Below, piece after piece: positions 1 through 17,332 of a stretch of DNA of 64,000 nucleotides. This DNA comes from Pseudomonas sp. SG20056 (GTDB lineage: Bacteria > Pseudomonadota > Gammaproteobacteria > Pseudomonadales > Pseudomonadaceae), in contig NZ_CP134499.1 of assembly GCF_031764535.1 (NCBI RefSeq), positions 558,001 through 622,000 on the forward strand, given 5' to 3'. The position numbers were made by a program, and so were the translations under genes. The notes under the pieces are model-generated. The model searched no databases, had not been told where the DNA came from, and worked only from the letters and a program-made list of their open reading frames with translations. Within the stretch, counting starts at the first letter, position 1. The number at the start of each line of letters is the position of its first letter.

Positions 1-24
1 CAAGGTGTACAGCAAAATCCGGGC

Positions 25-49
25 AAAAAAACGGGCCCAGCGGGCCCGT
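25..49 (-). terminator. Rho-independent terminator after the CoA-transferase gene
   Basis: Read on the minus strand, an 8-bp perfect stem (ACGGGCCC with GGGCCCGT, 3-nt loop) runs straight into a run of seven T. It lies about 18 nt beyond the CoA-transferase stop codon and fits an intrinsic terminator ending that operon. Confidence 0.9.
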
Positions 50-66
50 AAACTCACACTCAAATG

Positions 67-1626
67 TTAATCAGCGTTCAGTTGCTCGCTCAGGCCGATC
101 GGCGGCGGCAGAAACAGCCGCGCATCCATCAGCTGCGGCGTACGCACGATGGGGGTGAAGTCCATGCGGTCGAGGATGTCGCGCTGGATATCCACCCCCG
201 GCGCCACTTCGATCAGCTCCAGACCGTCCAGGGTCAGGCGGAACACGCAGCGTTCGGTGACATACAGCACCGGCTGGCCGCGTTCGGCGGCTTGGTGGCC
301 GGCGAAGGTGCGGTGCTCGACTTCGGCGACGAACTTGCACAGCTCGCCATCCTTGATGATGCGCAGCTGGCCGTCCTCGATGCCGATATCCTGCGCCCCG
401 GCGCTGAAGGTGCCGAGGAACACCACCTGCTTGGCGTTCTGGCTGATATTGATAAAACCGCCCGCTCCGGCCAGGCGTGAGCCGAACTTGGACACGTTGA
501 GGTTGCCCGCCGCATCGGCCTGGGCCAGGCCGAGAAACGCAATATCCAGGCCGCCACCGTCGTAGAAATCGAACTGATAAGGTTGGTCGAGCAGCGCGCT
601 GTGATTGCTCGCCGCGCCAAAATCCAGCCCCGAGGCGGGGATGCCGCCGATCACCCCGGGTTCGGCGGTCAGGGTCAGGCGCTCGATCACGCCTTCTTCG
701 GCCGCAACCCCGGCCACACCTTCCGGCATGCCGATGCCCAGGTTGACCACCGCACCGGCTTTCAGCTCCAGTGCCGCGCGGCGGGCGATCAGTTTGCGCA
801 CATCCAGAGGCATGGCTTTCAGGCTGTCCATCGGCACCCGGGTTTCGCCGGCGAAGGCCGGGTTGTAGGCGGTGGCGAAGGTTTGCTGGTGGTTTACCGG
901 CTCGGCCAGCACCACGCAGTCCACCAGAATCCCAGGGATCTTCACCTCGCGGGCATTCAACGAGCCGCGTTCGACAATGCGCTCAACTTGGGCAATCACC
1001 ACCCCGCCCGAGTTGCGTGCGGCCATGGCGATGGCCAGGCTCTCGATGGTCAGCGCCTCGCGCTCGAAGCTCAGGTTGCCGTCGGCATCGCTGCTGGTGG
1101 CGCGCACCACCGCCACGTGAATGGGGAATGTCGGGTAGAACAGGTAGTCCTCGCCATCGATGGGCATTAGCCGCACCAGCTCGGTGGTGGTGCGCGCATT
1201 GAGCTTGCCGCCGCCGTGGCGCGGGTCGACATAGGTGCCCAAACCAACCCGCGACAGCTGCCCCGGCTTGCCGGCGGCGATATCGCGAAACAGCTGGGAG
1301 ATCACCCCCTGCGGCAGGTTGTAGGCTTCGATGCGGTTATCCACCGCGAGCTTCTGCAGTCCTGGCACCAAGCCCCAGTGGCCGCCGATTACCCGCCGCA
1401 CCAGGCCTTCATGAGCCAGGTGGTTAAGGCCGCGGCCCTTGCCATCCCCTTGGCCGGCGGCATACACCAGAGTCAGGTCGCGTGGAGCCTGTTCAGCAAG
1501 AAAGCGTTGCTCCAGGGCGATGGCGATCTGCTCGGCGAAACCGATGCCGACAAAGCCGCCGGTGGCCAGGTTGGCGTTATCCGGGATGCGCGCCACAGCG
1601 GCGGCGGCAGTCATGATCTTGCTCAT
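67..1626 (-). CDS. Acyl-CoA:acetate/3-ketoacid CoA-transferase (YdiF type, single chain)
   Basis: Predicted 519-residue fused alpha/beta CoA-transferase that would move CoA between acyl-CoA and acetate or a 3-keto acid in the cytosol. The N-terminal half has the glycine-rich [11 protein letters not shown] segment and the C-terminal half has [12 protein letters not shown] followed by TAEPGVIGG. The Glu of TAEPG is the expected catalytic glutamate that forms the CoA thioester. The length suits the single-chain YdiF family rather than split AtoD/AtoA. I chose the ATG at 1626 because the residues before [10 protein letters not shown] are not family-like. It lies 74 nt downstream of the permease gene on the same strand, so the pair probably imports and activates a short-chain organic acid. 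The substrate cannot be read from sequence. Confidence 0.85.
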
Positions 1627-1700
1627 AGCGGGTACTCGAAAGCGATTGAACAACATTGAGTACAGGCGGCATGGCGCACAGGAGCGCCATGCCAGGCCCG

Positions 1701-3086
1701 TCAGAAACTACCGAACAGCGTGCCCAGGGTGATGACGACCACCAGCGCCACCATCGGGAAAGCCACGGTGTTAACGAAGATAAATTTGTACGACTCACGG
1801 TGCGTGAGTTTGCAGATCGCCAGCAGCGAGATCACCGCGCCGTTGTGCGGCAGGGTGTCCATGCAGCCAGAGGCCATCGCCGCGACGCGGTGCAGCAGCT
1901 CGGGGCTGATGCCGGCGGCGTTGGCCATGGTCAGGTACTGCTCGCCGAGGGTCTTCAGCGCAATCGACATACCGCCAGACGCCGAACCGGTGATGCCGGC
2001 GAGGATGTTTACCGCCACCGCTTCGGAGATCAGCGGGTTATCGGAGACGCCCAGCACCAGGTCGCGAATGATCACAAAACCGGCCAGCGAGGCGATCACC
2101 GTGCCGTAACCCACTTCAGCAGCGGTGTTGAGGATGGGCAGCATGGAGCCGAAGGCGCCATCGTTGACGCTCTTTTTCAGGTCCATCCAGCGCTGCCAGT
2201 GCATGGCGATCAACAGCAGGATGGCCGCACTGAGGGCGACGATGATCGACCAGATACCGATCAGCGATTTGGCATCTTGCAGGCCGCCGAATTCCGGCTT
2301 GGCCAGGTAGCTGGTGTCGATGCTCGGCAGAATCTGCTTGGCCATCAGGAAGTTCAGGCCGATCACCACGAAGATCGGGAGCAGAGCCAGCCAGAAGCCG
2401 GGGATCGTGCGCTGGTCCTCGACGACCGGGTCATCGCGGTGCTCGCCGTAGCCTTCACCGGCAGCCATCAGCTTGCGCGACTGCGCGGTAAGCCACCAGG
2501 TACCGAGGCCGAACATGATCAGCCCGGCGATTACGCCCAGGCCCGGCGCAGCAAAGGCGTCGGTGCCGAAAAACGGGTTGGGGATGGCGTTCTGAATTGC
2601 CGGCGTGCCGGGCAGGGCGGTCATGGTGAAAGTAAACGAGCCGAGGGCGATGGCACCGGGGATCAGGCGCTTGGGAATGCCCGCTTCACGGAACAGCGCT
2701 GCGCCAATCGGGTACACCGCAAAGGCCACCACGAACAGCGACACGCCGCCGTAGGTGAGGATGCCGCACGCCAGCACAATGGCCAGGATCGCCCGCTCGC
2801 TGCCGACTTTGGCGACGATGCCCTGGGCGATGGCGCGGGCCGATCCCGAGTCGTCCATCAACTTGCCGAACAGCGCGCCCAGCAGAAACAGCGGAAAGAA
2901 CTGGATCACGTAGCCGCCCATGGCCTTCATAAACACTTGGGTGTAGGTGGGCAGCAGCAGGTGAATGTCACCGGCAAACAGCAAGGCCAGCAACGCGAGC
3001 AGAGGGGCGAGGATCAGCACGTTGATGCCGCGGTAGGCGAGGTACATCAACAATGCGAGGGAAATCAGAATACCGAGGGTACCCAT
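1701..3086 (-). CDS. GntP-family permease
   Basis: A 461-residue polytopic inner-membrane protein with roughly 12 hydrophobic segments and no signal peptide. Gly/Pro-rich membrane motifs such as [15 protein letters not shown] and the [16 protein letters not shown] stretch are typical of the GntP/ion-transporter superfamily (gluconate and short carboxylates). It is the first gene of a two-gene operon with the CoA-transferase, and a sigma-54-type promoter lies 100 nt upstream. P. aeruginosa has a GntP permease (PA2004) beside the sigma-54 activator HbcR, which controls 3-hydroxybutyrate catabolism. By analogy a ketone-body or short hydroxy-acid substrate is likely, but this is inference. Confidence 0.85.
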
Positions 3087-3186
3087 GGCTGGTTCCTTTT
3101 GTTGTTGTTTTAAGCACCGCTCTATGGCGACGCTGATGAGCTTGCTCGTTAAGCCAGGCAGCGAGACAAAGCGTTGAGCAGACTAG

Positions 3187-3202
3187 AGCGAAAGCTGTGC
3201 CA
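3187..3202 (-). promoter_or_regulatory. Sigma-54 (-24/-12) promoter for the permease/CoA-transferase operon
   Basis: On the minus strand the sequence reads TGGCACAGCTTTCGCT. Compared with TGGCACG-N4-TTGCW, the -24 GG and -12 GC are at exact spacing and only two consensus positions differ. It sits 100 nt upstream of the permease ATG, and the gene immediately upstream encodes an enhancer-binding activator. Confidence 0.75.
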
Positions 3203-3310
3203 GACGGGGCTACGACTTTGGTCTAGGTGGGTGAAAGGCTTGTGGTTGAGGGGTTGCGTGGGGGTTTAGGAGGTTTGGCGGGGTTGTCGGAGGAGAAGGG
3301 TGTGTCTTTA

Positions 3311-3370
3311 TTTCTGGAATTAGTCCATGGAGCTGGACGGTTGAGTTGGCTTTAGGTCCAGAATTTTGGA
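3311..3370. promoter_or_regulatory. Possible activator binding region upstream of the sigma-54 promoter
   Basis: Between 3311 and 3370 lie TTCTGGA, TCCATGGA and the imperfect palindrome TCCAGAATTTTGGA, which share TCCAGA/TCTGGA half-sites in opposite orientation. They are about 110-170 bp upstream of the -24 element, the usual distance for an enhancer-binding protein site. This is a pattern-based guess. Confidence 0.35.
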
Positions 3371-3403
3371 TTTTTTACACCTGTAGGAGCGTTCGTATAT
3401 TCC

Positions 3404-3643
3404 GTAGCCCGGATGAAATCCGGGAAATGCTCGGTTGTGCGGTACTTCCCGGATTACATCCGGGCTACAACTCTGACACGAGCATGGATCGTGGGAGGGG
3501 CTTTAGCCGCGACAACAGCGGTTAAAAGCTCGCCGCTAAAGCGCCTCCCACAGCACACGCACGGCTGGCTTTGCTTGTGTAGGAGCGGGCTTGCCCGCGA
3601 TCTCTTGCTGACTCAAAAGCATCGCGGCCAAGGCCGCTCCTAC
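3404..3643. repeat. Cluster of three REP-type inverted-repeat pairs
   Basis: The 595-bp gap between the permease and the regulator gene holds three head-to-head palindromic pairs of different families. Pair one (3404-3468) is GTAGCCCGGATGAAATCCGGG and its inverted partner. Pair two (3491-3551) starts GTGGGAGGGGCTTTAGC and ends with its complement. Pair three (3579-3643) starts GTAGGAGCGGGCTTGCCCGC and ends GGCCGCTCCTAC, the classic pseudomonad REP core. Apart from these and the promoter region I see no gene in the gap. Confidence 0.85.
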
Positions 3644-3681
3644 GGGGAATTGCGTTCGCTTTAGGCGGCAGTGAGCTTGGC

Positions 3682-5142
3682 TTAGTCGTGCTTACCCAAC
3701 CCATGCAGTGCCAGCTTGGCGTACAGCCCTGCGCGGGAAATCCCCAGGCGTTGCGCAGCCTGTTGGCGGTTGCCGGCTGTAGCCTGAAGGGCGTCGATCA
3801 GCGCCTGGCGTTCGGCCCGTGCCAGTTGCTCCGCCAATGTTTGCGTCACGCTGGTCGCTGGCTGCGGCGCAATGCTGTGCGCTGCGGGCGTTACCGGGTC
3901 GACCAGCAACGCCCGCACGGTTTGCGCATCCAGGCGCCCGTCGACATCCAATTGGGCGCGCTCCAGCAGGTTGCGCAGCTCGCGCACATTGCCACGCCAG
4001 GGCTGCGCGCTCAGCAGGGCGAGGGCGTCATCGCTGACTTCCAGCGGGGCCTGCGTCGAGCGGTTGGCAATATCGTCGAGCAGATGCTCCAGCAACGCCG
4101 GAATATCCTCGCGGCGCTCACGCAGCGGCGGCACGCGCAGGGCCAGCACGTTAAGGCGGTAGTAGAGGTCGTCACGGAACTGCCCGGCGGCGACCTTGGC
4201 TTCCAGATCGATATGTGTCGCTGCTATCACCCGTACATTCAACGGTTTGACCTGATTGGAGCCCAGCGGCTCGACCTCCTGCTCCTGCAAGACGCGCAGC
4301 AACTTGGCCTGCAACGGCAGCGGTAGATCGCCGATTTCATCGAGAAACAACGTGCCGCCGTTGGCCACCTCGAACTTGCCGATACGCGCCTTGCGATCCG
4401 CGCCGGTAAAGGCGCCGGGCGCGGTGCCGAACAGCTCGGCCTCGACCAGGGTTTCCGGGATGGCCGCGACGTTGACCGCGACAAACGGCCCGTTGGCCCG
4501 TGGCGACAGGTTGTGGATGCCCTGGGCCAGCAGCTCCTTGCCTGTGCCGGTTTCGCCGCGCAGCAGCACCGTGGCGTCTAGTTGTGCGGCGCGGCGAGCT
4601 TGGCGTTTGACTTCGCTGGCTGCGCTGCTGGCGCCGATAAACCCAGCAATGGTGTAACGCGCGCGGCGCGCCTTGGCCAATTCGTGCTGGGTGGCGACCA
4701 GCTGGTTCTGCAGGGTATTGAATTTGGCCATCAGCGGCTTGAGGTGACGGGCGCGGTCGAACAGCACAAAGCCCAGCGCGCCGACCAGGGTGCCGTCCTC
4801 ATCGCGCAACGGAATACGGGTGACCACAAAGTGTTCGCTGCCGAAGGCCATCAGGTCGAGCATGCTCGGCTGGCCGCTTTCCACCACTTCGCGCAAGCGG
4901 CTGGCTGGCAGCACGTCTTCGATCTCTTTGCCGAGTACGCTGCGCGGGTCGCTGATGCCAACCTTTTCGGCGTACTTGTCGTTGATCCAGACAATCCGCG
5001 CCTGGCGGTTGACCGCGATGGTGCCCTCGCATTGCGCGTTTAGGTGGTCGAACAACAGCGGCATGGCCACGGCGCGGAAGCGCTCGGGCGAAACACCAAT
5101 GATCAGGCCGTGTTGGTCGAGGTCGTCGCGGGCAATGGCCAT
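3682..5142 (-). CDS. Sigma-54-dependent activator with PAS domain (HbcR-like)
   Basis: A 486-residue enhancer-binding protein. An N-terminal PAS-like sensor (about residues 25-130, QARIVWINDKYAEKVGIS) is followed by the AAA+ domain with Walker A GETGTGKE, the sigma-54-contacting GAFTGAD loop and Walker B TLFLDEIG. A C-terminal Fis-type helix-turn-helix (RQQAAQRLGISRAGLYAKL) ends the chain. There is no receiver domain, so the trigger is probably a ligand sensed by the PAS domain. It is transcribed toward the permease operon, whose upstream region has a -24/-12 promoter, so that operon is its likely target. Similarity in layout to P. aeruginosa HbcR is inferred from memory. Confidence 0.88.
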   Translation of the reverse strand: MAIARDDLDQHGLIIGVSPERFRAVAMPLLFDHLNAQCEGTIAVNRQARIVWINDKYAEKVGISDPRSVLGKEIEDVLPASRLREVVESGQPSMLDLMAFGSEHFVVTRIPLRDEDGTLVGALGFVLFDRARHLKPLMAKFNTLQNQLVATQHELAKARRARYTIAGFIGASSAASEVKRQARRAAQLDATVLLRGETGTGKELLAQGIHNLSPRANGPFVAVNVAAIPETLVEAELFGTAPGAFTGADRKARIGKFEVANGGTLFLDEIGDLPLPLQAKLLRVLQEQEVEPLGSNQVKPLNVRVIAATHIDLEAKVAAGQFRDDLYYRLNVLALRVPPLRERREDIPALLEHLLDDIANRSTQAPLEVSDDALALLSAQPWRGNVRELRNLLERAQLDVDGRLDAQTVRALLVDPVTPAAHSIAPQPATSVTQTLAEQLARAERQALIDALQATAGNRQQAAQRLGISRAGLYAKLALHGLGKHD

Positions 5143-5271
5143 GGGCGCAGTACATCCAGAATCAGGTGCGGCCGATTATGGGTGGCGCTGCGCGCAGGGG
5201 GCAACCGGCGGCGATCTGCACTCCGCCGGTAAGTGTCGAGCGCCATGTGCGCGATCAGCCGCAGATCTGCG

Positions 5272-6513
5272 TCACCGCGCCTGCAGCAGGTAATGACGCT
5301 TCTTGCCCAGGCTTAGCCGTCGACCCAGCTGCCAGGCTTGCAACGGCTGGTCCGGATTGCCCTGGCGTTCGCCATCCAGCAGCAAGCCGCCGCCGGCTGC
5401 CAGGCGGCGTACTGCGCTGCGTGAGGGCTGCAAGTTATGGCGCAGCAGCAGGTCGGTGAGGCTGAGACCGCCGGCCAGATCTTCCGCGCTAACGCTTAGC
5501 TGCGGTAGTTCGGCATGCGTATCCTGCGCCGTGAACAGCGCCAGAGCTGTGGCTTCGGCCTCGCGTGCAGCCTGCTCGCCATGGGCCAGGGCGGTGGCGG
5601 CGTTGGCCAGGATGATTTTCGCCTGGTTCAGCTCGGCGCCGGCAAGGGCGCTCAAGCTCGCTACCTCATCCAGCGCTAGTTCGCTAAACAGGGCGAGAAA
5701 GCGCCCCACATCAGCGTCATCGCAATTGCGCCAGAACTGCCAGAAGTCATACGGCGAGAGCTTGTCGCCATTCAGCCATACCGCGCCTGCCGCCGATTTG
5801 CCCATCTTGCGCCCGTCACGGGTGGTCAGCAGCGGCATGGTCAGGCCGAACAGCGGCTGGCAGCCCTGGCGCCGGCCCAATTCCACGCCATTGATGATAT
5901 TGGCCCACTGGTCGGCACCACCCAGTTGCAGGGTGCAATTATGCCGGCGCGCTAGTTCGGTGAAGTCGTGGGCCTGCAGCAGGGTGTAGCCGAACTCCTG
6001 AAAGCTCAGCGAATGCTCACGCTCCAGACGGTTGCGCACGGCATCGAAGGTCAGCAGGCGGTTGATGGAAAAGTGCCGGCCGACCTGGTCGAGAAACTGC
6101 AGGTAGCCGATACCGTCCAGCCAGTCGGCGTTGTCCACCACCAGGCCGTCGCTGGGGCCATCGCCCAGCTGGATGTAGCGGGCAAAGCAGCCGGTAATCC
6201 CGGCGATGTTGTGCTGAATCTGTGCTTCCGTCAGCACCGGCCGGCTGCTGTCGCGAAAGCTTGGGTCGCCGATGCGTGTGGTGGCTCCGCCGATCAGCAG
6301 GATCGGTTTGTGCCCGGCGCGTTGCAGGTGGCGCATCAGCATCAAGGCTTGCAAATGGCCGACGTGCAGGCTGTCCGCCGTAGCATCGAAGCCGAGGTAA
6401 AAGGTGATCGGGCCCTGGCTGAGCGCCAGGCGCAGGCCATCGAGGTCGGTGCTCTGGTGGATAAAGCCACGAGCAGCGAGCTGGTCGAGCAGATCAAGGG
6501 TGTTACTGGGCAT
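5272..6513 (-). CDS. tyrS: Tyrosyl-tRNA synthetase
   Basis: Class I aminoacyl-tRNA synthetase, 413 residues, charging tRNA-Tyr. The Rossmann fold carries the HIGH-type motif HVGH (about residue 50), the tyrosine-pocket segment GGADQWANI, and the KMSKS-type loop KMGKS. The C-terminal part has an S4-like RNA-binding domain ([19 protein letters not shown]). The ATG at 6513 is preceded by AGGAGAC at 6518-6524. The gene is monocistronic here, between the sigma-54 regulator and a divergent diguanylate cyclase gene. Its 5' leader is unusually structured (see leader entries), suggesting expression responds to tyrosine charging. Confidence 0.95.
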
Positions 6514-6603
6514 ACGTGTCTCCTGGTTAAGGCAAAAGCCTGAGGAGACTGGAGTGGGGGTGTGCTATCCGGGCCGCCTCAGGCGGATCGGACATGCAAC
6601 AAC
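6514..6603 (-). promoter_or_regulatory. Mutually exclusive hairpins in the tyrS leader (candidate attenuator / SD sequestration)
   Basis: In transcript order, segment a (CAGGCGG, 6617-6611) can pair with segment b (CCGCCTG, 6586-6580). Segment b (GCCTGAGG, 6584-6577) can instead pair with c (CCTCAGGC, 6545-6538), which is followed by TTTT. Segment c with its 5' neighbour (GTCTCCT, 6549-6543) can pair with d (AGGAGAC, 6524-6518), the tyrS Shine-Dalgarno, enclosing an AGGC-TTTT-GCCT stem. All listed pairings are perfect by inspection. Which one dominates is not known. Confidence 0.6.
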
Positions 6604-6607
6604 GCAT

Positions 6608-6673
6608 CTACCGCCTGGTGAGAGGGGGCAGGGCGTAATAAAACGCGGAAATTGGGCAGATGTGTCTGTGCAT
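6608..6673 (-). CDS. Putative tyrS leader peptide with Phe-Tyr-Tyr
   Basis: A 21-codon reading frame, MHRHICPISAFYYALPPLTRR, ends 94 nt before tyrS. It contains Phe and two adjacent Tyr codons (TTT TAT TAC), and its last codons plus stop overlap segment a of the leader hairpins. This is the geometry of amino-acid-responsive leader peptides: stalling at Tyr leaves segment a free, while reaching the stop covers it. No good Shine-Dalgarno precedes the ATG. A promoter candidate 9 nt upstream would make the message nearly leaderless. No homologue is known to me. Confidence 0.55.
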   Translation of the reverse strand: MHRHICPISAFYYALPPLTRR

Positions 6674-6681
6674 GGGGCGGC

Positions 6682-6709
6682 ACTTTAAGGGCTTTGGCGG
6701 GCAAGTCAA
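6682..6709 (-). promoter_or_regulatory. Candidate sigma-70 promoter for tyrS
   Basis: Minus strand TTGACT (6709-6704) is followed, after 16 nt, by TAAAGT (6687-6682). Transcription would begin about 6675, at or just before the leader-peptide ATG. Confidence 0.5.
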
Positions 6710-6793
6710 CCGCACGTGATCGGCGGTTCGCACGCTGCCTATCTGGTCAAGGCCCAGGCAGTTGAGGCACAGTGAGCCATCAAACCGCCATCC

Positions 6794-7894
6794 ATGCAGT
6801 GCCGGGCCATGTTTTTTCGACCGCGAACCAAACCGGGCAGTGACAGCAACGCCGCCGTCGACGACTTGCAGGATGTCGGCCAGCGTTCGTTGATCCGCAT
6901 GATCTTTGCCAGTACCGGGCTGACCCTCGGGGTGTTCTGCGCGCTGCAATTTATGGCCGGCAACTACCTGTTTGCCAGTTTCGAGCTGGTTGCCACCGCA
7001 ACGTTGCTGTGGGGCGCCTGGCGGATTGTCCGGGTGCGCAACCTATTGCCCTGGATCTACCTCTACCTGCTGCCGACCTTCAGCTTTCTGCTGTACATCA
7101 TCGTTATCCCCAACGCCTCGAAAACCGCCTTTGTTTGGGTCTACAGCATTCCCGTGCTGTCCTACCTGCTGCTCGGACTCAAGCGCGGCAGCTTGCTGTC
7201 ACTGCCTTTTGTGATCGGCGCTTGCCTGTTGTACCTGTACACCTACCCGGTTCAGCGCGATGCCGAAAGCCTGATCGACCTGGGTAACGCGGTGTTTTGC
7301 GGTGTGATGATTCTGGTCTTCGTCTACCTCTATGAAGCCCGCCGCGCCACCGCCTATCAGCAGCTGCAACATATGGCCCGTACCGATGCGCTGACCGGTG
7401 TGGCCAGCCGCGGCAGCTTCCAGCAAAGCCTGGAGCAAAGCATCCGCGAGGCGCAGCGCAGCCAGGCCAAACTGGTGCTGGTGGTACTGGATATCGACTA
7501 TTTCAAGGCGGTGAATGACCAGTACGGCCACGATGCTGGCGACCAAGCCCTGCGCCATATCTGCAACAGCCTCAGCCAGCGCCTGCGCGCCACCGACACC
7601 TTGGGGCGCCTGGGTGGTGAAGAGTTCGGTCTGCTGCTGCGCAATACCGATGGTCAGGGCGCCGAGTCGCTGGTGGAAGGTCTGCGCGTGCAGCTGTGCA
7701 GCCAGCCGATGCGTTATGGCGATCAGGACATTGCGCTGTCTGCAACTTTCGGCCTGGCCGAATGGCCCGTCGATGGCAGCACCGCCGAGCAGCTTTATCG
7801 CTGCGCTGATCAGCGCCTGTATCGCGGTAAGGAGCTGGGCCGCAATCGCCTGGTCGGTCGGCACAGTGCCGAGGCTGAGTCCGGCTGCGAGTAA
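6794..7894 (+). CDS. Membrane diguanylate cyclase (GGDEF)
   Basis: A 366-residue protein: about six hydrophobic segments between residues 30 and 185, then a C-terminal GGDEF domain beginning RTDALTGVASR with active-site GGEEF. It should make cyclic di-GMP from GTP at the inner membrane. I see no RxxD inhibitory site next to the catalytic motif (the residues before it read TDTLGRLGGEEF). The first ATG (6794) has no convincing Shine-Dalgarno, and ATG 6809 is an alternative start. It is divergent from tyrS and followed after 135 bp by an EAL-domain gene, suggesting paired synthesis and breakdown of the messenger. Confidence 0.9.
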   Translation: MQCRAMFFRPRTKPGSDSNAAVDDLQDVGQRSLIRMIFASTGLTLGVFCALQFMAGNYLFASFELVATATLLWGAWRIVRVRNLLPWIYLYLLPTFSFLLYIIVIPNASKTAFVWVYSIPVLSYLLLGLKRGSLLSLPFVIGACLLYLYTYPVQRDAESLIDLGNAVFCGVMILVFVYLYEARRATAYQQLQHMARTDALTGVASRGSFQQSLEQSIREAQRSQAKLVLVVLDIDYFKAVNDQYGHDAGDQALRHICNSLSQRLRATDTLGRLGGEEFGLLLRNTDGQGAESLVEGLRVQLCSQPMRYGDQDIALSATFGLAEWPVDGSTAEQLYRCADQRLYRGKELGRNRLVGRHSAEAESGCE

Positions 7895-8029
7895 TGCGGC
7901 TGCATGCTAATCGTCCGTAGTGCCTCTGCTACGGCGTCTACACTCAACTCGGCCCATCGATAAACCACAGTGTTGGTAAACCCTCGGGCGACTTCCTTGG
8001 CGAAGCAACGGGTCACTCAGGGACTTTTC

Positions 8030-9391
8030 ATGACCGCCCTTTCTGCCTTTTTCAAGCAGGTTATCAAGCTCTGGCACTCACCCGATTTGACCCTGATCGG
8101 TCAGCGCCGCGAGCGCCGCATGCGCATGCTCGCCAGCCTGGTACTGCTGCTGGTCGGTAGCTTCTGGGGGCTGTTCTTCAGCCTGCGTGGCGAGTGGGGC
8201 ATCGTCCTGATGGACTTGTTGATGATCCTTTGTGGCCTCGGTGTATTTACCCTGACCCTGCGCAACCGCGTGCGCCTGGCCAATCTGTTGCTGTTCGGCG
8301 TAATCATCCTGGTGATCGTCGGCACCAGCTTGTTGATGGACCCACATACCGCCGCCGCACCGCGCGCGACCCACCTGTATCTGCTGCCAATTGCCGTGGC
8401 GGCGTTGATGGCCTTTCGCGATGAACGGATGTGGCTGCGCTACGGCGTTGCACTGTTCTGCCTGGGCCTGTTCATTGTGCTGGCCTCTTCATCCTGGAGC
8501 CCGACCAGCGCCTATCACCTGCCGGATGAAGTACGGGTGAGCGGCTCCTGGGTGCAGAGCGTGGCGGCCATGCTGATGTTGTTTGCCCTGCTGCACATCT
8601 TGCAAAGCGATGCGGCCGAGCGCTCGATGCTCGACCGTGACCTACACGCCGCACTGAGTGAGCAGCAGTTTGTGCTGCACTACCAACCGCAACTGCACAG
8701 TAGCGGCAAAGTCACCGGTGCCGAAGTGCTGATCCGCTGGCAGCACCCGCAACGCGGACTGGTGCCGCCAGTCGAGTTCATTGACCATGCCGAGAAAACC
8801 GGGCTGATCATCCCGATTGGCCAATGGGTGCTGGAACAGGCCTTTACCCAGTTGCGCGCCTGGAAGGACGACCCGCTGTATCGAGACATCAGCCTGGCGG
8901 TCAACATCAGTCAGAAGCAATTTCGCCAGGCCAATTTTGTCACTGACATGCTCGGACTGATCGAAACCTACGGCATCGACACACGTCGGCTCGAACTGGA
9001 GTTGACCGAAACTCTTATCGTCCACGACATCGACGACCTGATGCGCAAAATGGCCGTACTGGTCGAGCGCGGCGTGCGCTTCTCCCTGGATGACTTCGGC
9101 ACCGGCTTCTCCTCCCTCAGCCACCTCAAGCGCCTGCCCCTCAACACCCTGAAAATCGACCGCTCATTTGTCAGCGACCTGCTTACCGACAGCAACAGCC
9201 AAGCCATCGTGCGCACTGTCATCGCCCTGGCGCAAAGCATGGGCATGACGGTGATCGCCGAAGGCGTGGAAACCGAAGCGCAGCAGCAGTTTTTGCTGAG
9301 TAACGGCTGCATGCAGTTTCAGGGCTATCTATTCAGCAAGCCGCTGCCATTGGGAGCGTTTACTGTGTTTGTGGAAACGCAGAATGGTTAA
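8030..9391 (+). CDS. Membrane EAL-domain cyclic-di-GMP phosphodiesterase
   Basis: A 453-residue protein with several N-terminal hydrophobic segments (about residues 30-190), then an EAL domain. The signature is AEVLIRW (EVL variant), followed by NIS, ELTET, the [10 protein letters not shown] metal/catalytic loop and AEGVET, so the catalytic set looks complete. It would hydrolyse cyclic di-GMP. The ATG at 8030 ([10 protein letters not shown]) is preferred over upstream in-frame codons because an AGGGAC precedes it. A strong terminator follows. Before the island inserted, the next gene downstream was the tRNA-Ile2 and then rmcA, so three c-di-GMP genes were neighbours. Confidence 0.9.
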
Positions 9392-9402
9392 GGAGAAAAC
9401 GC

Positions 9403-9430
9403 AAAAAGCCGCGCAATGCGCGGCTTTTTA
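9403..9430 (+). terminator. Terminator after the EAL gene
   Basis: Stem GCCGCGC/GCGCGGC with AAT loop, preceded by A5 and followed by T5, 12 bp after the stop codon. The A/T flanks could let it work in both directions. Confidence 0.9.
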
Positions 9431-9432
9431 TT

Positions 9433-9478
9433 TGGTGGGCCCACACGGACTCGAACCGTGGACCAAAGGATTATGAGT
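9433..9478 (-). repeat. attL: 46-bp copy of the tRNA-Ile2 3' half
   Basis: This stretch is identical over 46 bp to 17333-17378, the CCA end through the anticodon loop of the complete tRNA gene at the other island boundary. It lacks the 5' half of a tRNA, so it is an attachment-site duplication rather than a gene. Similarity continues imperfectly for a few bases outward. Confidence 0.95.
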
Positions 9479-9535
9479 TGCCTAGAAACGCTGCAAACCC
9501 AGTGTAATCGTGAGTAGCTTAGCGCAGGTAAACCA

Positions 9536-10294
9536 TCAGGCATCGTCTGTGTCGGGCTTATAGAAAAGATCCCAACTACTCTGATGTTTGACCCGTGGGT
9601 CTACGCCATAAACGGGCGACACTGGGAGGCCGAGAGACTTTCTCTCCTCCAACTGTCGCTCCCAAGGCCGGTCGGTGCCCAGTACTCTCCCAAGATGCTC
9701 AGCGCGCGAGTCTTCTCGGCTTTTCCAAACACCGAGAAGCTCCTGGTACTCATCGCTGGCTGCCAATCGATAAGCCACTTCAACCAGATCACTTCCAACC
9801 CAATGCGCCAAGGGAAGAGTCCGCTCTACTGCAGCAAGACGTTCCTCATCACTCTCCAGATCTACATCACCCTCTTCATACAAGCGCTTTGCCAGTGCAA
9901 TGGCTTTGCTGAAATAGTTATCCGCGCCAGGCTGCTCCGCATGAAGAAACTCAGGGAAAGTCAGTGCTGTAAGTGGCGCCACATGGCCATTAGCAGCATC
10001 GGTCACACCTGTGACCAGCCAGAACGCGTACTTCGGCCACAAGTGGGCTATCGACTCGATCATGGCGGAAGTCGGCTTCTGCTTGCGCGAGAAAGCGCTG
10101 CGCCATCTTGCAGACGGAATATCCGTTAGCTGGGACAGCTTCTCCCAGAAACCACGGCCAGCGTATTGCGGCTGGCTCCACAGGCTGAGCAACGCAGAGA
10201 AAGCCCCTTCATGCCCTTTCAGGCCCTCAAGGTCAGCAGGAGACATTTGCTCCTTCAAAATCAAAATGACGCGATCTTCGATTGTACTTGACAT
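9536..10294 (-). CDS. Phage-type HTH repressor-like regulator
   Basis: A 252-residue protein. Residues about 45-100 contain a helix-turn-helix-like region (EKLSQLTDIPSARWRSAFS) ending in AFWLVTGV, a phrase seen in pseudomonad phage repressors that bind as XRE-type proteins. The rest is unassigned and acidic toward the C-terminus. It is transcribed away from the small HTH/replication operon, and a 10-bp-arm operator lies between them. The sensible role is repressor of the island's rightward promoter and possibly of itself. The minus strand upstream has TATGAT as a -10 candidate and GGGTCAGG just before the ATG. I cannot name the family with certainty. Confidence 0.6.
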   Translation of the reverse strand: MSSTIEDRVILILKEQMSPADLEGLKGHEGAFSALLSLWSQPQYAGRGFWEKLSQLTDIPSARWRSAFSRKQKPTSAMIESIAHLWPKYAFWLVTGVTDAANGHVAPLTALTFPEFLHAEQPGADNYFSKAIALAKRLYEEGDVDLESDEERLAAVERTLPLAHWVGSDLVEVAYRLAASDEYQELLGVWKSREDSRAEHLGRVLGTDRPWERQLEERKSLGLPVSPVYGVDPRVKHQSSWDLFYKPDTDDA

Positions 10295-10316
10295 CCTGAC
10301 CCTTCGATCATAAAAA
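10288..10316 (+). promoter_or_regulatory. Near-consensus sigma-70 promoter of the island's rightward operon
   Basis: TTGACA (10288-10293), 17-nt spacer, TAAAAA (10311-10316). The -35 box overlaps the start codon of the divergent repressor gene. Transcription should start within the operator palindrome. Confidence 0.7.
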
Positions 10317-10318
10317 GA

Positions 10319-10347
10319 ACTAAATGTCTAAAATACGGACATTTAGT
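10319..10347. promoter_or_regulatory. Operator: 10-bp perfect inverted repeat
   Basis: ACTAAATGTC and GACATTTAGT are perfect complements separated by 9 nt. The site covers the predicted start point of the rightward promoter and lies just upstream of the leftward repressor -10 candidate (TATGAT, about 10307-10312). That is the expected place for a repressor controlling both directions. Confidence 0.7.
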
Positions 10348-10419
10348 ATTTTTTAAGGACTCTTACGCCTCTTTGCGTAATGACCTCAGTGTATCGCAAG
10401 CCATTTGAGGAGTCGCCCG

Positions 10420-10638
10420 ATGACAATCGAAGAAACCCTCCTGAACCGCTACGGCGGCTCTCCACTACTCTCCCTCCAACAGTTAGCAGAGGTTCTACAT
10501 CGCAGCAAAGATGGCCTAAGGGTATCCCTAAGCGGAGACAGCGAGTTGTCTGCCGAGCTACGTCGGTGCAAAGTCAAAATCGGCCGCAGGGTCTACTTCA
10601 AAACATCTGCAGTAGCTCGTGTCATTGAAGAAGCCTGA
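10420..10638 (+). CDS. Small HTH DNA-binding protein (excisionase/AlpA-like position)
   Basis: A 72-residue protein. LLSLQQLAEVLHRSKDGLR looks like a helix-turn-helix, followed by KIGRRVYFKTSAVARVI, a strand-helix ending common in small excisionase/AlpA-like winged-helix proteins. The start at ATG 10420 is set by GAGGAG 8 nt upstream. It is the first gene of the repressible operon, with 5 nt to the next start. In phage satellites and integrative elements a gene here usually activates excision or downstream genes. Function is inferred from size and place only. Confidence 0.55.
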   Translation: MTIEETLLNRYGGSPLLSLQQLAEVLHRSKDGLRVSLSGDSELSAELRRCKVKIGRRVYFKTSAVARVIEEA

Positions 10639-10643
10639 CCGTT

Positions 10644-11459
10644 ATGAGCATAAAGGCCATGAACTGGGCATGGGAGCAGCCGCTTCCGCCCGTTCCGAAG
10701 CTAATTCTCATGGCGCTCGCTGATAACGCAGACGATCACGGCTACTGCTGGCCGAAGATGAAGACGATAGCAGCCAAGTGCAGCACTTCGGAACGCACCA
10801 TTCAGCGCACCATCAAGACCCTGCTAACCGCAGGGATGCTGAAGAAAGACGCTCGATTCGATGCCAACGGCCGGCAGGTTTCTAATGGCTACACCCTCGT
10901 ACTAAGCTACCCCGACAAATTGTCACCCCCAGCTGAAGACAGAGCTAGGGAGGGTGACACCCATGTCACCCCGGGGGTGACACAGCTATGTCGGGGGGAG
11001 GGTGACAAAGCTATGTCACCCCTAGAACCACCATATGAACCTTCATATGAATCATCAGTACAGCGCACGGCACAATTGACGCAACTGAACGCAGCGGAGA
11101 AGCAAAAGGTCTCCCAACTGATCCGTTCGATTCCCGCTGATCAACAGGAAGCAATTACTGCTCAACTGCTGAATGCTCTGACCAAGGGAGCCATCAGGTC
11201 CTCCCCGTCACGCTGGTTGAAGGCAGTTATTCACCGAACAGGTCGCGTCAGACATCCTCAGAATGCGTCACAGCGCTCGGAAGCAGACTATGTAGAGCGC
11301 CTGATTCAAGGCGGAATATCAACTGAGGATGCCCAGCACATTGCCCAACAGACCTTTAGTCGACGTATAGTCAGCAGAGCAGGACATCGCAAGTGCCCCC
11401 TAAGCACTCAACAAGCCGACAATAGCGTTTGGCTAAAGGGATTTGCCAAAATTGACTAG
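10644..11459 (+). CDS. HTH_36-type replication-associated protein of the island
   Basis: A 271-residue protein. Residues 1-75 (MNWAWEQPLPPVPKLILMAL, then CSTSERTIQRTIKTL) match the N-terminal winged helix of phage O-like or plasmid replication proteins (HTH_36 type), which bind an origin and recruit helicase. The middle is low-complexity (repeated GDTHVTP/GVTQLCRGEGD-like stretches around residues 95-125) and the C-terminus is a charged helical region. It is the second gene of the repressor-controlled operon. I infer that it starts island replication after excision. A regulator of unknown target is the alternative. Confidence 0.6.
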   Translation: MSIKAMNWAWEQPLPPVPKLILMALADNADDHGYCWPKMKTIAAKCSTSERTIQRTIKTLLTAGMLKKDARFDANGRQVSNGYTLVLSYPDKLSPPAEDRAREGDTHVTPGVTQLCRGEGDKAMSPLEPPYEPSYESSVQRTAQLTQLNAAEKQKVSQLIRSIPADQQEAITAQLLNALTKGAIRSSPSRWLKAVIHRTGRVRHPQNASQRSEADYVERLIQGGISTEDAQHIAQQTFSRRIVSRAGHRKCPLSTQQADNSVWLKGFAKID

Positions 11460-11584
11460 CCCGCCGTAAATCACACAGAGTTTTTGCTGACGCGGGAGAT
11501 GGATCAGTGAATCGCCCTAGGTTTGTGGATGAATCCCAAGTCGAATATTGCCCCTATACTCAGCATGGGCTACTTATAGCCGGA

Positions 11585-11613
11585 TAGCGACGGCTCACTC
11601 CAGGCCGTCGCTA
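11585..11613. repeat. Strong GC hairpin between island core and cargo
   Basis: TAGCGACGGC and GCCGTCGCTA form a 10-bp perfect stem with a 9-nt loop, in the 196-bp gap where the replication gene and the lipoprotein gene converge. No T-run follows on either strand, so it may be a weak terminator or a folded DNA site. Nothing else is evident in the gap. Confidence 0.5.
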
Positions 11614-11655
11614 TAAATGCAAACAGTCGAATCGGAGAAGTAGTCTAAAAGACTT

Positions 11656-12483
11656 TCAATTATTTTCGACTTCGACGCTAGGATTTTTCTGTATATCAAT
11701 AGTCTCGACGGATGGCGACTGGCTTGCGGATGCAAATCCTCCCCCCGTGTCAAATTTGGCCAATTCTCCCGCTATGTAAAATGAGTTTGGACTGGAGAGC
11801 ACGAGCTCTTTATTACTTATCCATCGTACGTTCACTCCAGCACCTAGCTCACCATTTATTGACTGTAGCGCACCATCCTTTAGCTTGGCACTTAACTCGG
11901 CGCCAACATCGGTATCAAACGAGAGCTTTGCTTCAAAGCCCGAGACCAGAATCGCTCGATACATTACTAATCGTCCTGGCTTGGACATTTCATCTTTTTC
12001 TGGAGATGCTGGAGGTAGAGCTTTAACAGCCTGCTCAAACCCTACCTCTTCAATTAAAACTGTATTTAACTTTGAAACCTTAACCTCTACACTCTTTGCT
12101 TTTGAAAACTCGGTTTTTAAGTCCGCTGAGAGAGGTGCAACACTCGAAGCAAAGTCAACGACTGCACCACCAGATAGTTTAGTCGATGAACTTCCTTGAC
12201 AATCAAATTCACTTCCATTCTTAACCCAGTTACTACTACCCGGGATCTTACTTGAGTCTAATCTTAACCTGTAGCCTCCGCCATCAGTGGCCTCGCGCCA
12301 AACCGACCCTGGACCGATTGAGTTAGAAACACCAAAGAAAAGAATTTTCTTCCCATTCAGGTCGCTATACGCGCAGTTCTTAGCAACGTCCGCCCATGCG
12401 TTCTTAGCATTATGCTTACACCCGACCACAACGGCTAACAGCGACAACATGGCTACCGTAACAATACTCTTTTTAACCTTCAT
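11656..12483 (-). CDS. Predicted lipoprotein, partner of the subtilisin-like peptidase
   Basis: A 275-residue protein starting with a lipoprotein signal (SIVTVAMLSLLAVVVGC, Cys at about residue 22). The mature part has an Ile/Gly-rich segment (KILFFGVSNSIGPGSVWRE, about residues 46-64), a Cys near residue 95 (EFDCQG), and a long polar C-terminal half rich in alternating hydrophobic/polar residues (beta-like). I do not recognise the family. It follows the peptidase gene by 12 nt with AGGATC before the ATG, so the two are one transcript. Both are clearly AT-rich compared with the chromosome. A substrate, inhibitor or effector released by the peptidase are all open possibilities. Confidence 0.7.
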   Translation of the reverse strand: MKVKKSIVTVAMLSLLAVVVGCKHNAKNAWADVAKNCAYSDLNGKKILFFGVSNSIGPGSVWREATDGGGYRLRLDSSKIPGSSNWVKNGSEFDCQGSSSTKLSGGAVVDFASSVAPLSADLKTEFSKAKSVEVKVSKLNTVLIEEVGFEQAVKALPPASPEKDEMSKPGRLVMYRAILVSGFEAKLSFDTDVGAELSAKLKDGALQSINGELGAGVNVRWISNKELVLSSPNSFYIAGELAKFDTGGGFASASQSPSVETIDIQKNPSVEVENN

Positions 12484-12495
12484 GATTTGATCCTT

Positions 12496-14415
12496 TCAGT
12501 TTTCAAAAAGCTTTTTGATATCGAGACCATACTGATCACCACTAGCCCCACCCTGCCGTGATTTTTTTACTATTTCTCGTAATTTATGCCCTTTATCTGG
12601 TGCATCATAAATAGAAAATTCCTGAGGAGGTATATATGCTAACTTTGCTGCAAAAAGCCAAGCTACCCGAGGTGCTGCGAAGCTTGTGCCACATATGCTG
12701 TCACTAACATAACCATTGAACGAAATAGCTAGCGGGTCCACACTCCTTGACCCCACGATACTAGAGCGACATTGGAGACTGCCATCGCGAGCGGTATTCA
12801 TGACTGCAACCACATCTTGGTTGCTTACGGATCTCACAGCAAACCACCTTTCTTCGGCTGCAGCATTGTCGGCGCACTCACATTCCTTACTGTAAGCGAG
12901 ATTCGGACGGCAACTTTTGCAGTTGTTTAGCGAAGAGTTTCCAGCAGCAGACACAAGTATCCCTTGATTAAAATCAAAGTGCGTAAACTTGTGCTCCCTC
13001 TTACGTGTCGTCCATGAGAAATTGACCACATATGGATTCCCACTGGCTACAGCATAGAGATCAGCGAATACTAGAGCCGATTCAATGATTGCTTTATCAG
13101 TACTGAGATCTTTTACACCAATATCTTGCTTTAGTCTTTTTACAATATCTCTTGCAATTTTCCTTTTGGCTTTCACCTCTTTATCAGGAACGGGGTCGCC
13201 TCTAGCGCCGAGCATAAAATCATCAATAAGCCTAAGAACTACCAACTCTTCAAGCATCGCCTTCGAGTACACCTGAGCTGTAGAAAGAGGTATATAAACC
13301 ACTCTTACTCTTTGATCATCCCACACCCTACTTGGCTCTAGCTCTACAAGAGTAGCCAGCGACTTGTGTATTGAACGGGCGTGAAAAGCCTCTTTTGGAT
13401 AATCTGTAAAAACCCTAGACTGACTCGAAGGATGTTGCAGCGCCACGGGATAATTAAATCTTTTCTTAATCATCTCTAACGCTTCAGAAACAAATTTTCT
13501 AGAATCATAAAATGCTTCGTCATTCGGCCAACCGTCATCAAGCACAATCAACACCGGCTTTAATTTTGGCTGCCCTGAGAGCTTGGATTTAATTATCATT
13601 CTTTCTTCAGCAGAAAGAAACGGGATAGACTGATAATCCTCAGCAAGACTCTCAGACTCCATATTAACTGAAATAACTTGTGCCTGAACCTCTTCGTATG
13701 ACTGATCTAACTCAATGCCACCGAGATGATCCTTATAATCTTTCGGCAGCCATAAGTGTTCTATGACAAGTGGAGATCCATCACGCCCATCCCCAGAGAC
13801 CACTGGCTTTTCTGTAAAAGCCTGAGTCACAGGGTTAAAGGCATCAAAGGAGGTGACCTTACTTAAACTAGGGTACATGCTACCTTTGGGGATTTTATTA
13901 TACTTATTAAGTAAATTAGGCTCCGAAAGCGCCATCCGCGGAAGGGCGGGTATCTTAATCACAGCACCAGCCTTTAAATTTTCTGGAGCGCCCAAATCAT
14001 TTAATTCAACTATTTTCTCTTCAATTGCCGCATATGCTTGTAGAGAGTTTTTTTGTCCAAACCCATATTCCCTCAGCACCACTTTCGATAGCGCATCTTG
14101 CTCCGAAATAGTAATTTCTCGAGCGATATTAGACTGGAGGGCTTCTTTAAGGTTAAGGGACGGGCGAAGCTTTATGTCTGGCCAAGTTTCTTCACTGCCT
14201 TGAGTACCAGCAGCATCTGGTCTAGACACGACGCTCTCTGGCGTGAAATACCTTGCGTCAATCACACGTCTAACAAGAACATAATCATCCGGCGGCTGAC
14301 TTATCGACTCCTCGAGCGCAGCAGATGATACCGTCGAAAAAGTGCAAGCTGCGACTAATGAAAGTGCTACTCTAAGTACAGTTAATAATTTTTTTAAGTT
14401 TTTGAGGCGGCTCAT
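12496..14415 (-). CDS. Exported subtilisin-like (S8) serine peptidase
   Basis: A 639-residue protein with a signal sequence (about residues 10-32). LSLVAAC could be a lipobox, while SSA-A would suit signal peptidase I. Residues about 103-157 resemble a LysM domain (SEQDALSKVVLREYG then LKAGAVIKIPALP). The S8 fold follows: Asp in VLIVLDDG (D293), His in FHARSIH (H345 or H350), oxyanion Asn in VSAAGN (N493) and nucleophile Ser in CGTSFAAP (S578). A Cys cluster (C499, C502, C512, C514) between them could form disulfides. It probably acts in the periplasm or at the envelope. The gene is first in the pair with the lipoprotein. Its target is unknown. Confidence 0.8.
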   Translation of the reverse strand: MSRLKNLKKLLTVLRVALSLVAACTFSTVSSAALEESISQPPDDYVLVRRVIDARYFTPESVVSRPDAAGTQGSEETWPDIKLRPSLNLKEALQSNIAREITISEQDALSKVVLREYGFGQKNSLQAYAAIEEKIVELNDLGAPENLKAGAVIKIPALPRMALSEPNLLNKYNKIPKGSMYPSLSKVTSFDAFNPVTQAFTEKPVVSGDGRDGSPLVIEHLWLPKDYKDHLGGIELDQSYEEVQAQVISVNMESESLAEDYQSIPFLSAEERMIIKSKLSGQPKLKPVLIVLDDGWPNDEAFYDSRKFVSEALEMIKKRFNYPVALQHPSSQSRVFTDYPKEAFHARSIHKSLATLVELEPSRVWDDQRVRVVYIPLSTAQVYSKAMLEELVVLRLIDDFMLGARGDPVPDKEVKAKRKIARDIVKRLKQDIGVKDLSTDKAIIESALVFADLYAVASGNPYVVNFSWTTRKREHKFTHFDFNQGILVSAAGNSSLNNCKSCRPNLAYSKECECADNAAAEERWFAVRSVSNQDVVAVMNTARDGSLQCRSSIVGSRSVDPLAISFNGYVSDSICGTSFAAPRVAWLFAAKLAYIPPQEFSIYDAPDKGHKLREIVKKSRQGGASGDQYGLDIKKLFEN

Positions 14416-14596
14416 TTAATTGTGCCCTCCGTGGTCGCGTTTCCTATCAAAAACCTCGCTTTAAAAATCACCATAGTTGAGTTAAATGAGAACGCAAGCC
14501 AGATGCCGGCAAATGGCTAGCATGGCAGAGAACGCTTGTCCGCCACCGCCCAGGCCAGAGGCGTGATATGCAGGCCGATGGTCAGAGGACACCTTT

Positions 14597-15514
14597 GTGA
14601 CCGCCGCTGATTCCACAGGCAATTCTCGCGGCTCTCAATCTTCAGCGCATTTAGCTCTGCCTGCGTCTGCCGTAGTCGCAAACGCCGCGCTGCTAAAGCT
14701 CGACCAGTTCATCGAGCAACAAGTGGTACCGCTGTATTACGGTCGTTATGTAGACGACATTCTGCTGGTCATGGAAAACGCCAGCGACATCAAAACTACC
14801 GAGCAGTTTTGGGAGTGGATCTTCAGTCGCGACGGCGGCAAGGATCTGCTCAAAAAAGATAAACGTAGCATCCTGTTCAAGCCTGACTATCTCAAAAAAG
14901 ACCGTATCGCTTTTGAAAACAGCAAAAACAAGCTGTTCATCCTTGCGGGCTCTGCAGGCACCGCTCTGGTCAACGCCATTTCCGAACAGATCAACCAGCG
15001 TGCCAGCGAATGGCGCGCGTTACCCGACCTGCCGAATTCGCCAAACACCGTGGCAACGGATCTGCTCAAAGCTACCAACCTTGCCGGTGAGCAAGCAGAC
15101 AATCTGCGCAAAACAGATTCCCTAACGCTACACCGTGCTGGCTTTGCTCTAAGCCTTCGCAACTACGAAGCCTTCGAGCGCGATATCCCCCCTGAGGATT
15201 GGCAAGCGCACCGCCATGCTTTTTTCGCTGCCGTCATCGAGCATCTGCTGACCCCGGTTAAGTTCTTCGAACTAGCTCAATACCTGCCACGCATCATTCG
15301 CATGGCTACCGCCTGTGAAGATTATGAGTACCTAAACAAGATCATCAATGCGCTGGGCGGCCTGATAAACAAAGTCGAAAACGACTGCACCCTGACGATC
15401 AAAAGCCTAGATGCTGCCAAAGTGCCGGCTGAAGCGCGGCAATTATGGAAACAATCCATCTGGGAAGTTACAGCGCAGAGCATCGTTTCAGCGTTCCCTT
15501 CTATCACGAGCTAA
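14597..15514 (+). pseudogene. Truncated defence-type reverse transcriptase remnant
   Basis: The frame begins near a GTG at 14597 and soon shows RT signatures: ASAVVANAALLKLD (motif B/4 type) and YYGRYVDDILLV with the catalytic YVDD at residues 51-54, followed by about 250 residues of helical thumb/C-terminal region. The fingers and first palm motifs are absent: an in-frame TGA stands at 14564 and the divergent peptidase gene begins only 181 bp upstream. The spacing and wording resemble the UG/DRT class of antiphage RTs, perhaps Drt3b-like, rather than group II intron RTs. The 3' end also looks frameshifted near 15500, because another frame continues with FMLDDSFIKLAKIEL to about 15660. Confidence 0.7.
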
Positions 15515-16367: not shown

Positions 16368-16509
16368 GGGCTTCTCCAGTAATTTGAAAATTTGATTTGT
16401 GTTTATTGACAGCGGTGTGTGGGAGGTGGTAGCGAAACAAGGTAATGCTATGCCATCACGATATGTCGCGTCAAAGGTGGCTTGATACTTCCTTTTCTGA
16501 GCGCGATAG

Positions 16510-16977: not shown

Positions 16978-17043
16978 CTAGGCGGCATCTACATTGGGTT
17001 TCACGTCTTATACGACATCGTCCGTGTGTTGTGGCGTGAGCGT

Positions 17044-17097
17044 GCGACAGCTCCAGTGAGTCGCAGATTTGGTGCGACACAACTCACTGCATGTCGC
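17044..17097. repeat. Extended interrupted palindrome near the island's tRNA end
   Basis: Nested arms pair across a 7-nt centre: GCGACA (17044) with TGTCGC (17092), CAGTGAGT (17054) with ACTCACTG (17082), and GTCGCA (17060) with TGCGAC (17073). The 355-bp gap 16978-17332 contains this, a tandem repeat and the tRNA terminator, but no gene I can support. Confidence 0.6.
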
Positions 17098-17243
17098 GCT
17101 TCCTGCAATACGCAGGCTCTTTCTCCGGCCTGAGCGCCTAATCCCGTACCCGTTGGGGACGTAGCACAAGCCAATTGGGGTGCTGCCTGGGTGTCGATCT
17201 GCGAGCTAAAGCGCTCGTTGCGTTCCAAAGCAGCAAAAATGAA

Positions 17244-17267
17244 ACGGTACGCAAAACGGTACGCAAA
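17244..17267 (+). repeat. Tandem 12-bp repeat, possible integrase arm sites
   Basis: ACGGTACGCAAA occurs twice head to tail without spacer, 65 bp from the attR core. Short direct repeats containing GGTACGCA (TGCGTACC on the other strand) often lie beside tRNA attachment sites as recombinase arm-type sites. That reading is inference. Confidence 0.5.
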
Positions 17268-17291
17268 TTTTTTATCTGGCCCATAAACGAC

Positions 17292-17315: not shown

Positions 17316-17332
17316 TAAGTCGTTGTTTTATA

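Follow-up and report, generated by a model that had tools for sequence, protein, structure and literature searches.

The second tyrosyl-tRNA synthetase gene (tyrS) of Pseudomonas sp. SG20056 is preceded by a conserved leader, in which a short tyrosine-containing reading frame is followed by a chain of mutually exclusive RNA helices that ends at the Shine-Dalgarno (SD) sequence of the gene. We consider it probable (about 0.6) that this leader acts as a translational switch under ribosome control for an auxiliary TyrRS, in which the signal would pass from a sensor frame to a hairpin b, from there to a segment c and finally to the SD sequence. Leader-peptide control of synthetase genes is itself known; what we propose as new is trp-like sensing joined to an SD sequestor for tyrS. 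If this reading holds, tyrS2 would be induced when charged tRNA-Tyr falls, e.g. upon inhibition of the housekeeping enzyme, and the leader peptide would attenuate a synthetase gene at the level of translation, not transcription, on a probably leaderless frame.

In the analyzed stretch of 64,000 nucleotides (the window), tyrS is located on the minus strand (5272-6513), encodes 413 amino acids and matches the NCBIfam model TIGR00234 with 329.1 bits (cut-off 113.8). Another TyrRS of the same genome (G000:C1:628377) shares 32 % identity with the product of the window's tyrS, and inspection by eye of the leader of this housekeeping TyrRS revealed no Tyr-rich short frame. Of 398 genomes sampled from the genus, 12 carry the tyrS type of the window (protein match, E-value 1e-100 or better). 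Because the gene is the second TyrRS of the genome and so few of the sampled genomes carry its type, we regard it as an auxiliary synthetase. A divergently oriented gene, GGDEF-like by eye, begins at 6794.

The 21-codon frame with TTT TAT TAC, which the original prediction had placed 94 nt before the tyrS ATG, is present on the minus strand (6673-6608) and encodes MHRHICPISAFYYALPPLTRR*. Upstream of it, a promoter-like site on the same strand consists of a -35 box TTGACT (6709-6704), a 16 nt spacer and a -10 box TAAAGT (6687-6682); one such site was found, compared to a mean of 0.1 in shuffled sequences. Between the end of the -10 box and the leader ATG lie 8 nt. In 39 of the 42 distinct leaders, TANNNT precedes the ATG by 6-8 nt (two other offsets occur once each), a figure favoured by the choice of start codons, as a promoter score was used where ATGs compete (L002, L003, L117 and L048 among 24 leaders); for L003 and L117 the chosen start codon is doubtful. 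Judged by promoter position alone, the expected transcription start coincides with the leader ATG or lies just upstream of it. An SD-like tetramer before this ATG was detected in 1 of the 42 distinct leaders and, together with the adjoining -10 box, the missing SD suggests that the frame is probably leaderless. A precedent is described in PMC7298713: the trpL/rnTrpL leader RNA of Sinorhizobium meliloti begins at the peptide ATG, but contains Trp codons and acts via transcription termination. By eye, L033 has kept the leader although it diverges upstream of the -35 box.

The leader frames carry 2-4 Tyr codons, and in the window TAT TAC (Tyr12 and Tyr13; 6635-6640, minus strand) are the proposed stalling codons. 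Across the 42 distinct leaders, Tyr makes up 15.3 % of the in-frame codons versus 0.5 % and 2.2 % of those in the two alternative frames, which is partly by construction because leaders were selected for at least two Tyr. The peptides vary from MHRHICPISAFYYALPPLTRR to MNLLTISRVRYYAYYRTSPRR, MRTFLCPISAYYYYLTNIGW and MLRSNLVSRVRYYGYRLPRR, with Tyr alone being common between groups, and they end differently (TRR, SPRR, SFGW, NIGW, ATSN). The spacing is well defined: in all 42 distinct leaders the last Tyr codon begins 13-22 nt before the motif GG[CT]GG of segment a (see below), which places this motif close to the expected leading edge of a ribosome that has the last Tyr codon in its A site. A published profile (PMC12121999) places the 3' edge of the ribosome at +16 to +18 from a start codon.

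For the analysis of conservation, a protein scan of named genomes was used, of which the best 80 of 109 loci were kept. Among these, a Tyr-cluster frame precedes tyrS in 19 of the 19 closest named relatives (L031-L049: Pseudomonas, Stutzerimonas, Thauera, Pseudothauera and one MAG labelled Gammaproteobacteria) and is therefore not a chance observation. In the other 61 of these best 80 of 109 loci, which are more distant (L050-L110, mostly alphaproteobacteria judging from their titles, L071 having just 84 nt upstream), no short frame with a Tyr cluster was found in the 320 nt preceding tyrS. The locus is also present in P. peli. The Thauera relatives L045 and L046 (Pseudothauera, Thauera) carry the same leader together with the same tyrS type at 63-65 % protein identity, which suggests joint transfer of gene and attenuator. 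Within the genus, the leader precedes tyrS2 in 9 of 12 loci and is missing, by eye, in L115, L116 and L118. The tyrS2 copies of L115 and L116 carry a palindrome-like CCTACCTATCGGTAGG near the gene, possibly an operator or a small terminator; L002 and L003 have similar motifs, GGTAGGTG, farther upstream than their promoter (by eye).

A covariance model (R1) built from 19 leaders matched 40 of 398 Pseudomonadaceae genomes (E-value 0.01 or better; all 40 inspected). Of these matches, 34 precede this tyrS type, one of them a broken copy, and the six weakest precede a threonine ammonia-lyase-like gene (family scan for L153 only). When 321 genomes of the class were searched, the model matched G000 and two other sites (L150, L151), neither of them before tyrS. 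A search of the SG20056 genome for further copies of the element returned only the tyrS locus and its own opposite strand at an E-value of 0.08, and the simpler pattern TCTCC..GGAGA occurs at 9 sites per strand in this genome, as it does in a reversed control (likewise 9).

The leaders compared below stem from 57 parsed loci, a non-random set fetched for a leader-model or protein match, with some genomes present twice. The parser demanded at least two Tyr and a GGAG before tyrS; it found the frame in 56 of the 57 loci, which yielded the 42 distinct leaders, all of them with an SD before tyrS by construction since GGAG was required. The exception, L140, represents a natural break (1454-1706): its tyrS2 matches over the first 33 codons alone and then passes into a different frame, the frame of the leader is shifted or lost, and the final base of the -10 box is unlike that of L141. 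A broken leader frame next to a broken tyrS is expected if the leader serves tyrS alone.

Downstream of the Tyr codons, four RNA segments can be distinguished on the minus strand, and those named in the original prediction are all present where it had described them. Segment a, CAGGCGG (6617-6611), has AGGCGG (6611-6616) within the last codons of the leader frame, which can pair with b1. A small hairpin ATGC...GCAT (6594-6607), whose GC and GC columns are nearly invariant in alignment A2, separates a from b1. The segment CCGCCTG (within 6586-6574), described before as b, proved to be part of a hairpin (6568-6592) with b1 CCGCC (6586-6582), the loop TGA (6581-6579), b2 GGCGG (6578-6574) and outer arms TCCG/CGGA; the self-pairing of b with its own 3' half GGCGG had been missed. 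Segment c, GTCTCCTCAGGC (6538-6549), is directly followed by TTTT in the window and can pair either with b via CCTCAGGC (6545-6538) or, via the anti-SD GTCTCCT (6549-6543), with segment d, the SD sequence AGGAGAC of tyrS (6518-6524). The 205-nt leader RNA folds better than 200 of 200 dinucleotide shuffles (z -3.69). Both the Tyr codons and the complementary segments are kept in close relatives, and the GG[CT]GG of segment a is retained even where the stop codon precedes it (L002, L003, L117, L139, L149). The T and G after GGCGG (6610-6608; GGCGGTAG or GGCGGTCG) do not vary among the 23 leaders of alignment A1, where they form the columns GGTAG/GGTCG, and are kept also when located outside the stop codon (L002, L003, L117); no pairing partner that would explain this invariance was found.

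Covariation had been suggested as a check for all helices, and it is borne out for b:c. In alignment A3, which contains 34 of the 42 leaders and leaves out the eight of genus g27 (L141-L148), 96.9 % of the b:c cells are paired, a value reached by 0 of 500 shuffles, while slid versions of the helix reach 59.0 % at most. Twelve cells are changed on both sides (0/500 shuffles), the covariation score is 0.212 (0/500 shuffles as high; slid controls 0.121 at most), and there are three pairs changed on both sides (30/500) and nine further pair types (25/500); for all these values, the shuffles ignore the relatedness of the leaders and the slid controls preserve it. The covariation extends over all three loop positions of b, with TGA/TCA, CAA/TTG, CGA/TCG and TGT/GCA as natural combinations of b loop and c and G-U intermediates such as TGA/TCG and CGA/TTG, and RNAalifold selected b:c unprompted. 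In the eight g27 leaders just 6-7 of 8 pairs form without a gap, and seven of these eight can form b:c with one bulged base (by eye); a clean ungapped b:c is thus missing in 8 of the 42 leaders.

The b1:b2 core is paired in 98.8 % of the cells, six of which are changed on both sides (8/500 shuffles); the number of its covarying pairs is not above that of the shuffles (235/500) and one slid version scores slightly higher. In the outer helix of b, 80.5 % of the cells are paired with changes on both sides in two of four pairs, and 16 of 32 rows lack the outermost pair of the hairpin; by eye, the outer arms vary by group yet mostly pair (CCGA/TCGG, CGTC/GACG, CCAG/CTGG). For the remaining two helices, little or no covariation was seen: a:b1 exhibits almost none, and c:d, although 94.0 % of its cells are paired in the tyrS set, has no pair changed on both sides there (500/500 shuffles as high).

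From these elements, we propose the following relay. The transcript would begin with the leader ATG or directly beside it, which would let a ribosome load at once on the Tyr frame. If Tyr-tRNA is plentiful, this ribosome would reach the stop codon and mask segment a; b1 would then close on b2, leaving c free to pair with d and tyrS switched off. If Tyr-tRNA is short, the ribosome would stall at the Tyr codons, 13-22 nt before a, so that a could pair with b1 and open the b hairpin. In this case b2 and the b loop would capture c before d is made, the SD sequence would stay accessible and tyrS would be on.

A crude folding simulation shows the first part of this order, the rearrangement of b. We applied a greedy co-transcriptional (kinetic) model to 16 of the 42 leaders, with one run per setting and barriers of 9 and 6 kcal/mol. 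At 9 kcal/mol, a ribosome placed at the stop codon gave b1:b2 in 14 of 16 leaders, and one placed on the first or last Tyr codon gave pairing of the b loop with c in 10 of 16; with the barrier at 6 kcal/mol, the corresponding numbers were 12 and 7 of 16. A consistent opening of the SD was not found with this model, even where b:c forms: with a stalled ribosome at 9 kcal/mol, some or all of the GGAG bases remained paired. In the window leader at 9 kcal/mol all four GGAG bases were paired in both states, and only in L037, L043 and L045 was the pairing of GGAG lower at both stalled positions than at the stop codon. In L046 more GGAG bases were paired upon stalling than at the stop, and in L139 and L149 b:c formed with the ribosome at the stop codon. 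Equilibrium folding kept the SD closed in every ribosome state in 24 of 24 leaders and, for this reason, is no test of switching. As the last step does not appear in the kinetic model, the relay is put forward as the best fit to covariation, geometry and physiology and not as a demonstrated switch.

Instead of acting on the SD sequence, the leader might control transcription. In one version, the untranslated C-rich stretch past the leader stop would be a Rho site that is hidden or exposed by the switch; in another, Rho would shorten the untranslated tyrS mRNA. Taken jointly, we regard the two versions as unlikely. The leader is indeed C-rich (by eye), a T-run is not conserved and Rho could operate together with a translational switch, but the conserved helices c:d and b:c point to the SD sequence.

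Classical transcription attenuation, in which b:c or the b hairpin would be an intrinsic terminator prevented by the stalled ribosome, corresponds to the logic of the original prediction. Its conserved Tyr codons and mutually exclusive helices hold up, whereas its interpretation of b:c as a terminator does not, since the T-run is not conserved. By eye, the four T after c, a second point missed before, are often reduced to three or fewer in relatives, and at least five T within 8 nt after c were counted in 1 of 21 scorable leaders (the window's own not among them). After the b hairpin, at least four T in 8 nt occur in 10 of 42 tyrS leaders and at least five in 3 of 42, and the sister leader of ilvA2 (see below) bears a T-run at this position, but 39 of the 42 tyrS leaders have fewer than five, and a scan of the window leader detected no terminator-like site. 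Intrinsic termination is therefore improbable as the common mechanism, and we assign this reading a very low probability.

The response could also have the opposite sign: stalling would favour a:b, free c and allow c:d to shut tyrS in starvation. This had been noted before as a conflict between the transcriptional and the translational reading, and the longer pairing CAGGCGG:CCGCCTG of the window would indeed occupy part of the b:c site. The conflict arose because b was treated as one segment, though it is itself a hairpin, CCGCC-TGA-GGCGG. The part of a that is common to the leaders is GGCGG/GGTGG alone, which needs only CCGCC, so that the loop and b2 stay free for c; with b split into b1, loop and b2, the conflict dissolves and stalling would open the SD. 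In the kinetic model, the window leader with a ribosome stalled at the first Tyr codon had b1 and loop paired 5'-ward and d closed at 6 kcal/mol, but at 9 kcal/mol the stalled state combines a 5'-ward paired b1 with loop:c in L037, L002 and L003. Moreover, shutting off a synthetase when charged tRNA is scarce makes little physiological sense, and we consider the reversed sign very improbable. Least probable of all is the sensing of a drug or ligand by nascent-chain arrest, erm-like and with the second TyrRS as a resistance gene: leader frames can sense antibiotics (PMC12121999), but Tyr alone is common between groups, the variable last residues argue against a specific arrest peptide, and an inhibitor of the housekeeping TyrRS would work via the same Tyr stalling.

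According to PMC1262725, the RNA elements that control tyrosine genes in other species are T-boxes. A scan of window positions 1-20000 at the Rfam gathering score returned only a tRNA, and no T-box was detected at E-values up to 5 in L122, L045 and L002. A sub-threshold sRNA row of Rfam overlaps the region before the L045 leader.

In translational attenuation of erm genes, a ribosome stalled on the leader and alternative helices release the SD in response to an antibiotic. The proposed tyrS switch would resemble this system in the stalled ribosome, the alternative helices and the release of the SD, but its signal would be uncharged tRNA and it has an extra hairpin, b1:b2, between sensor and sequestor. 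Both erm-type features, an SD-sequestering helix (c:d) and an alternative helix that excludes it (b:c), are found in the tyrS leader; of the trp/pheST-type features, the cognate-codon frame is present and an intrinsic terminator before the gene was not found in the window leader. Ribosome-mediated attenuation is also known for an auxiliary TrpRS in Streptomyces. Control of resistance genes by leaders is mentioned in PMC7298713 and PMC12121999. For synthetase genes, PMC1262725 lists leader-peptide control as known or predicted for pheST, trpS and leuS (trpS and leuS predicted in Streptomyces), each with a short frame of cognate codons upstream of the gene as in the tyrS leader. These are described as classical attenuators with terminators, whereas the tyrS switch appears to act on the SD sequence. 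The earlier statement that no such system is described for a pseudomonad tyrS agrees with our search of the open-licence literature, in which no leader peptide before a tyrosyl-tRNA synthetase gene was recognized from titles, the opening lines of abstracts and term counts; term searches of PMC2965389 and PMC3460626 did not return tyrS.

The six weak matches of the tyrS leader model (E-value 0.001-0.01) are leaders of ilvA2, the threonine ammonia-lyase gene, and led to a sister element. In these six, and in the majority of 15 second-copy ilvA loci, the leader encodes a peptide with IITAI (SIITAI in most), followed by a CCCGCC..GGCGGG hairpin with a T-run and by GTCTCC-like and GGAG segments around the SD. 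In the 18 ilvA2 leaders compared (L172 duplicates L153; L176 and L182 were unparsed), c:d shows compensatory changes, namely GTCTCCG/CGGAGAC in L180 and GACTCC/GGAGTC in L184 and L185, and is weaker in L178 and L183. By eye, nine other ilvA copies (L187-L195), taken as housekeeping, are without an Ile leader. The Rfam family RF00624, 'Pseudomonas sRNA P9', matches four of four ilvA2 loci scanned (L172 at 1381-1455, L185, L186 and L180); tried as a classification of the tyrS leader, it gave no match in L122, L045, L002, L139 and L204 (the last two from the same genome). As P9 coincides with the Ile leader, the T-run hairpin and the SD-pairing segment, it is probably the terminated leader RNA of ilvA2.

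The ilvA2/P9 leader shares with the tyrS leader a -10-like box 6-7 nt before the ATG (by eye), an amino-acid-rich peptide, GGCGGG at the peptide end, a CCGCC..GGCGG hairpin and GTCTCC...GGAGAC around the SD. It differs in its Ile (and Thr) codons, in the terminator-like T-run after the b hairpin and in a b:c helix that is partial by eye. We tentatively suggest, as a possibility somewhat short of even odds, that pseudomonads have retuned one attenuator chassis (leaderless sensor peptide, a at the peptide end, b hairpin, c as anti-SD and d as SD), with Ile codons and a terminator for ilvA2 and with Tyr codons and a purely translational relay for TyrRS2. If so, the latter would, to our knowledge, be the first leader-peptide control of a tyrosyl-tRNA synthetase, in which trp-like logic is passed via an intermediate hairpin to an SD sequestor. 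A putative Ile-rich leader peptide attenuator before ilvA2 was also seen in L152-L157 and L173-L184.
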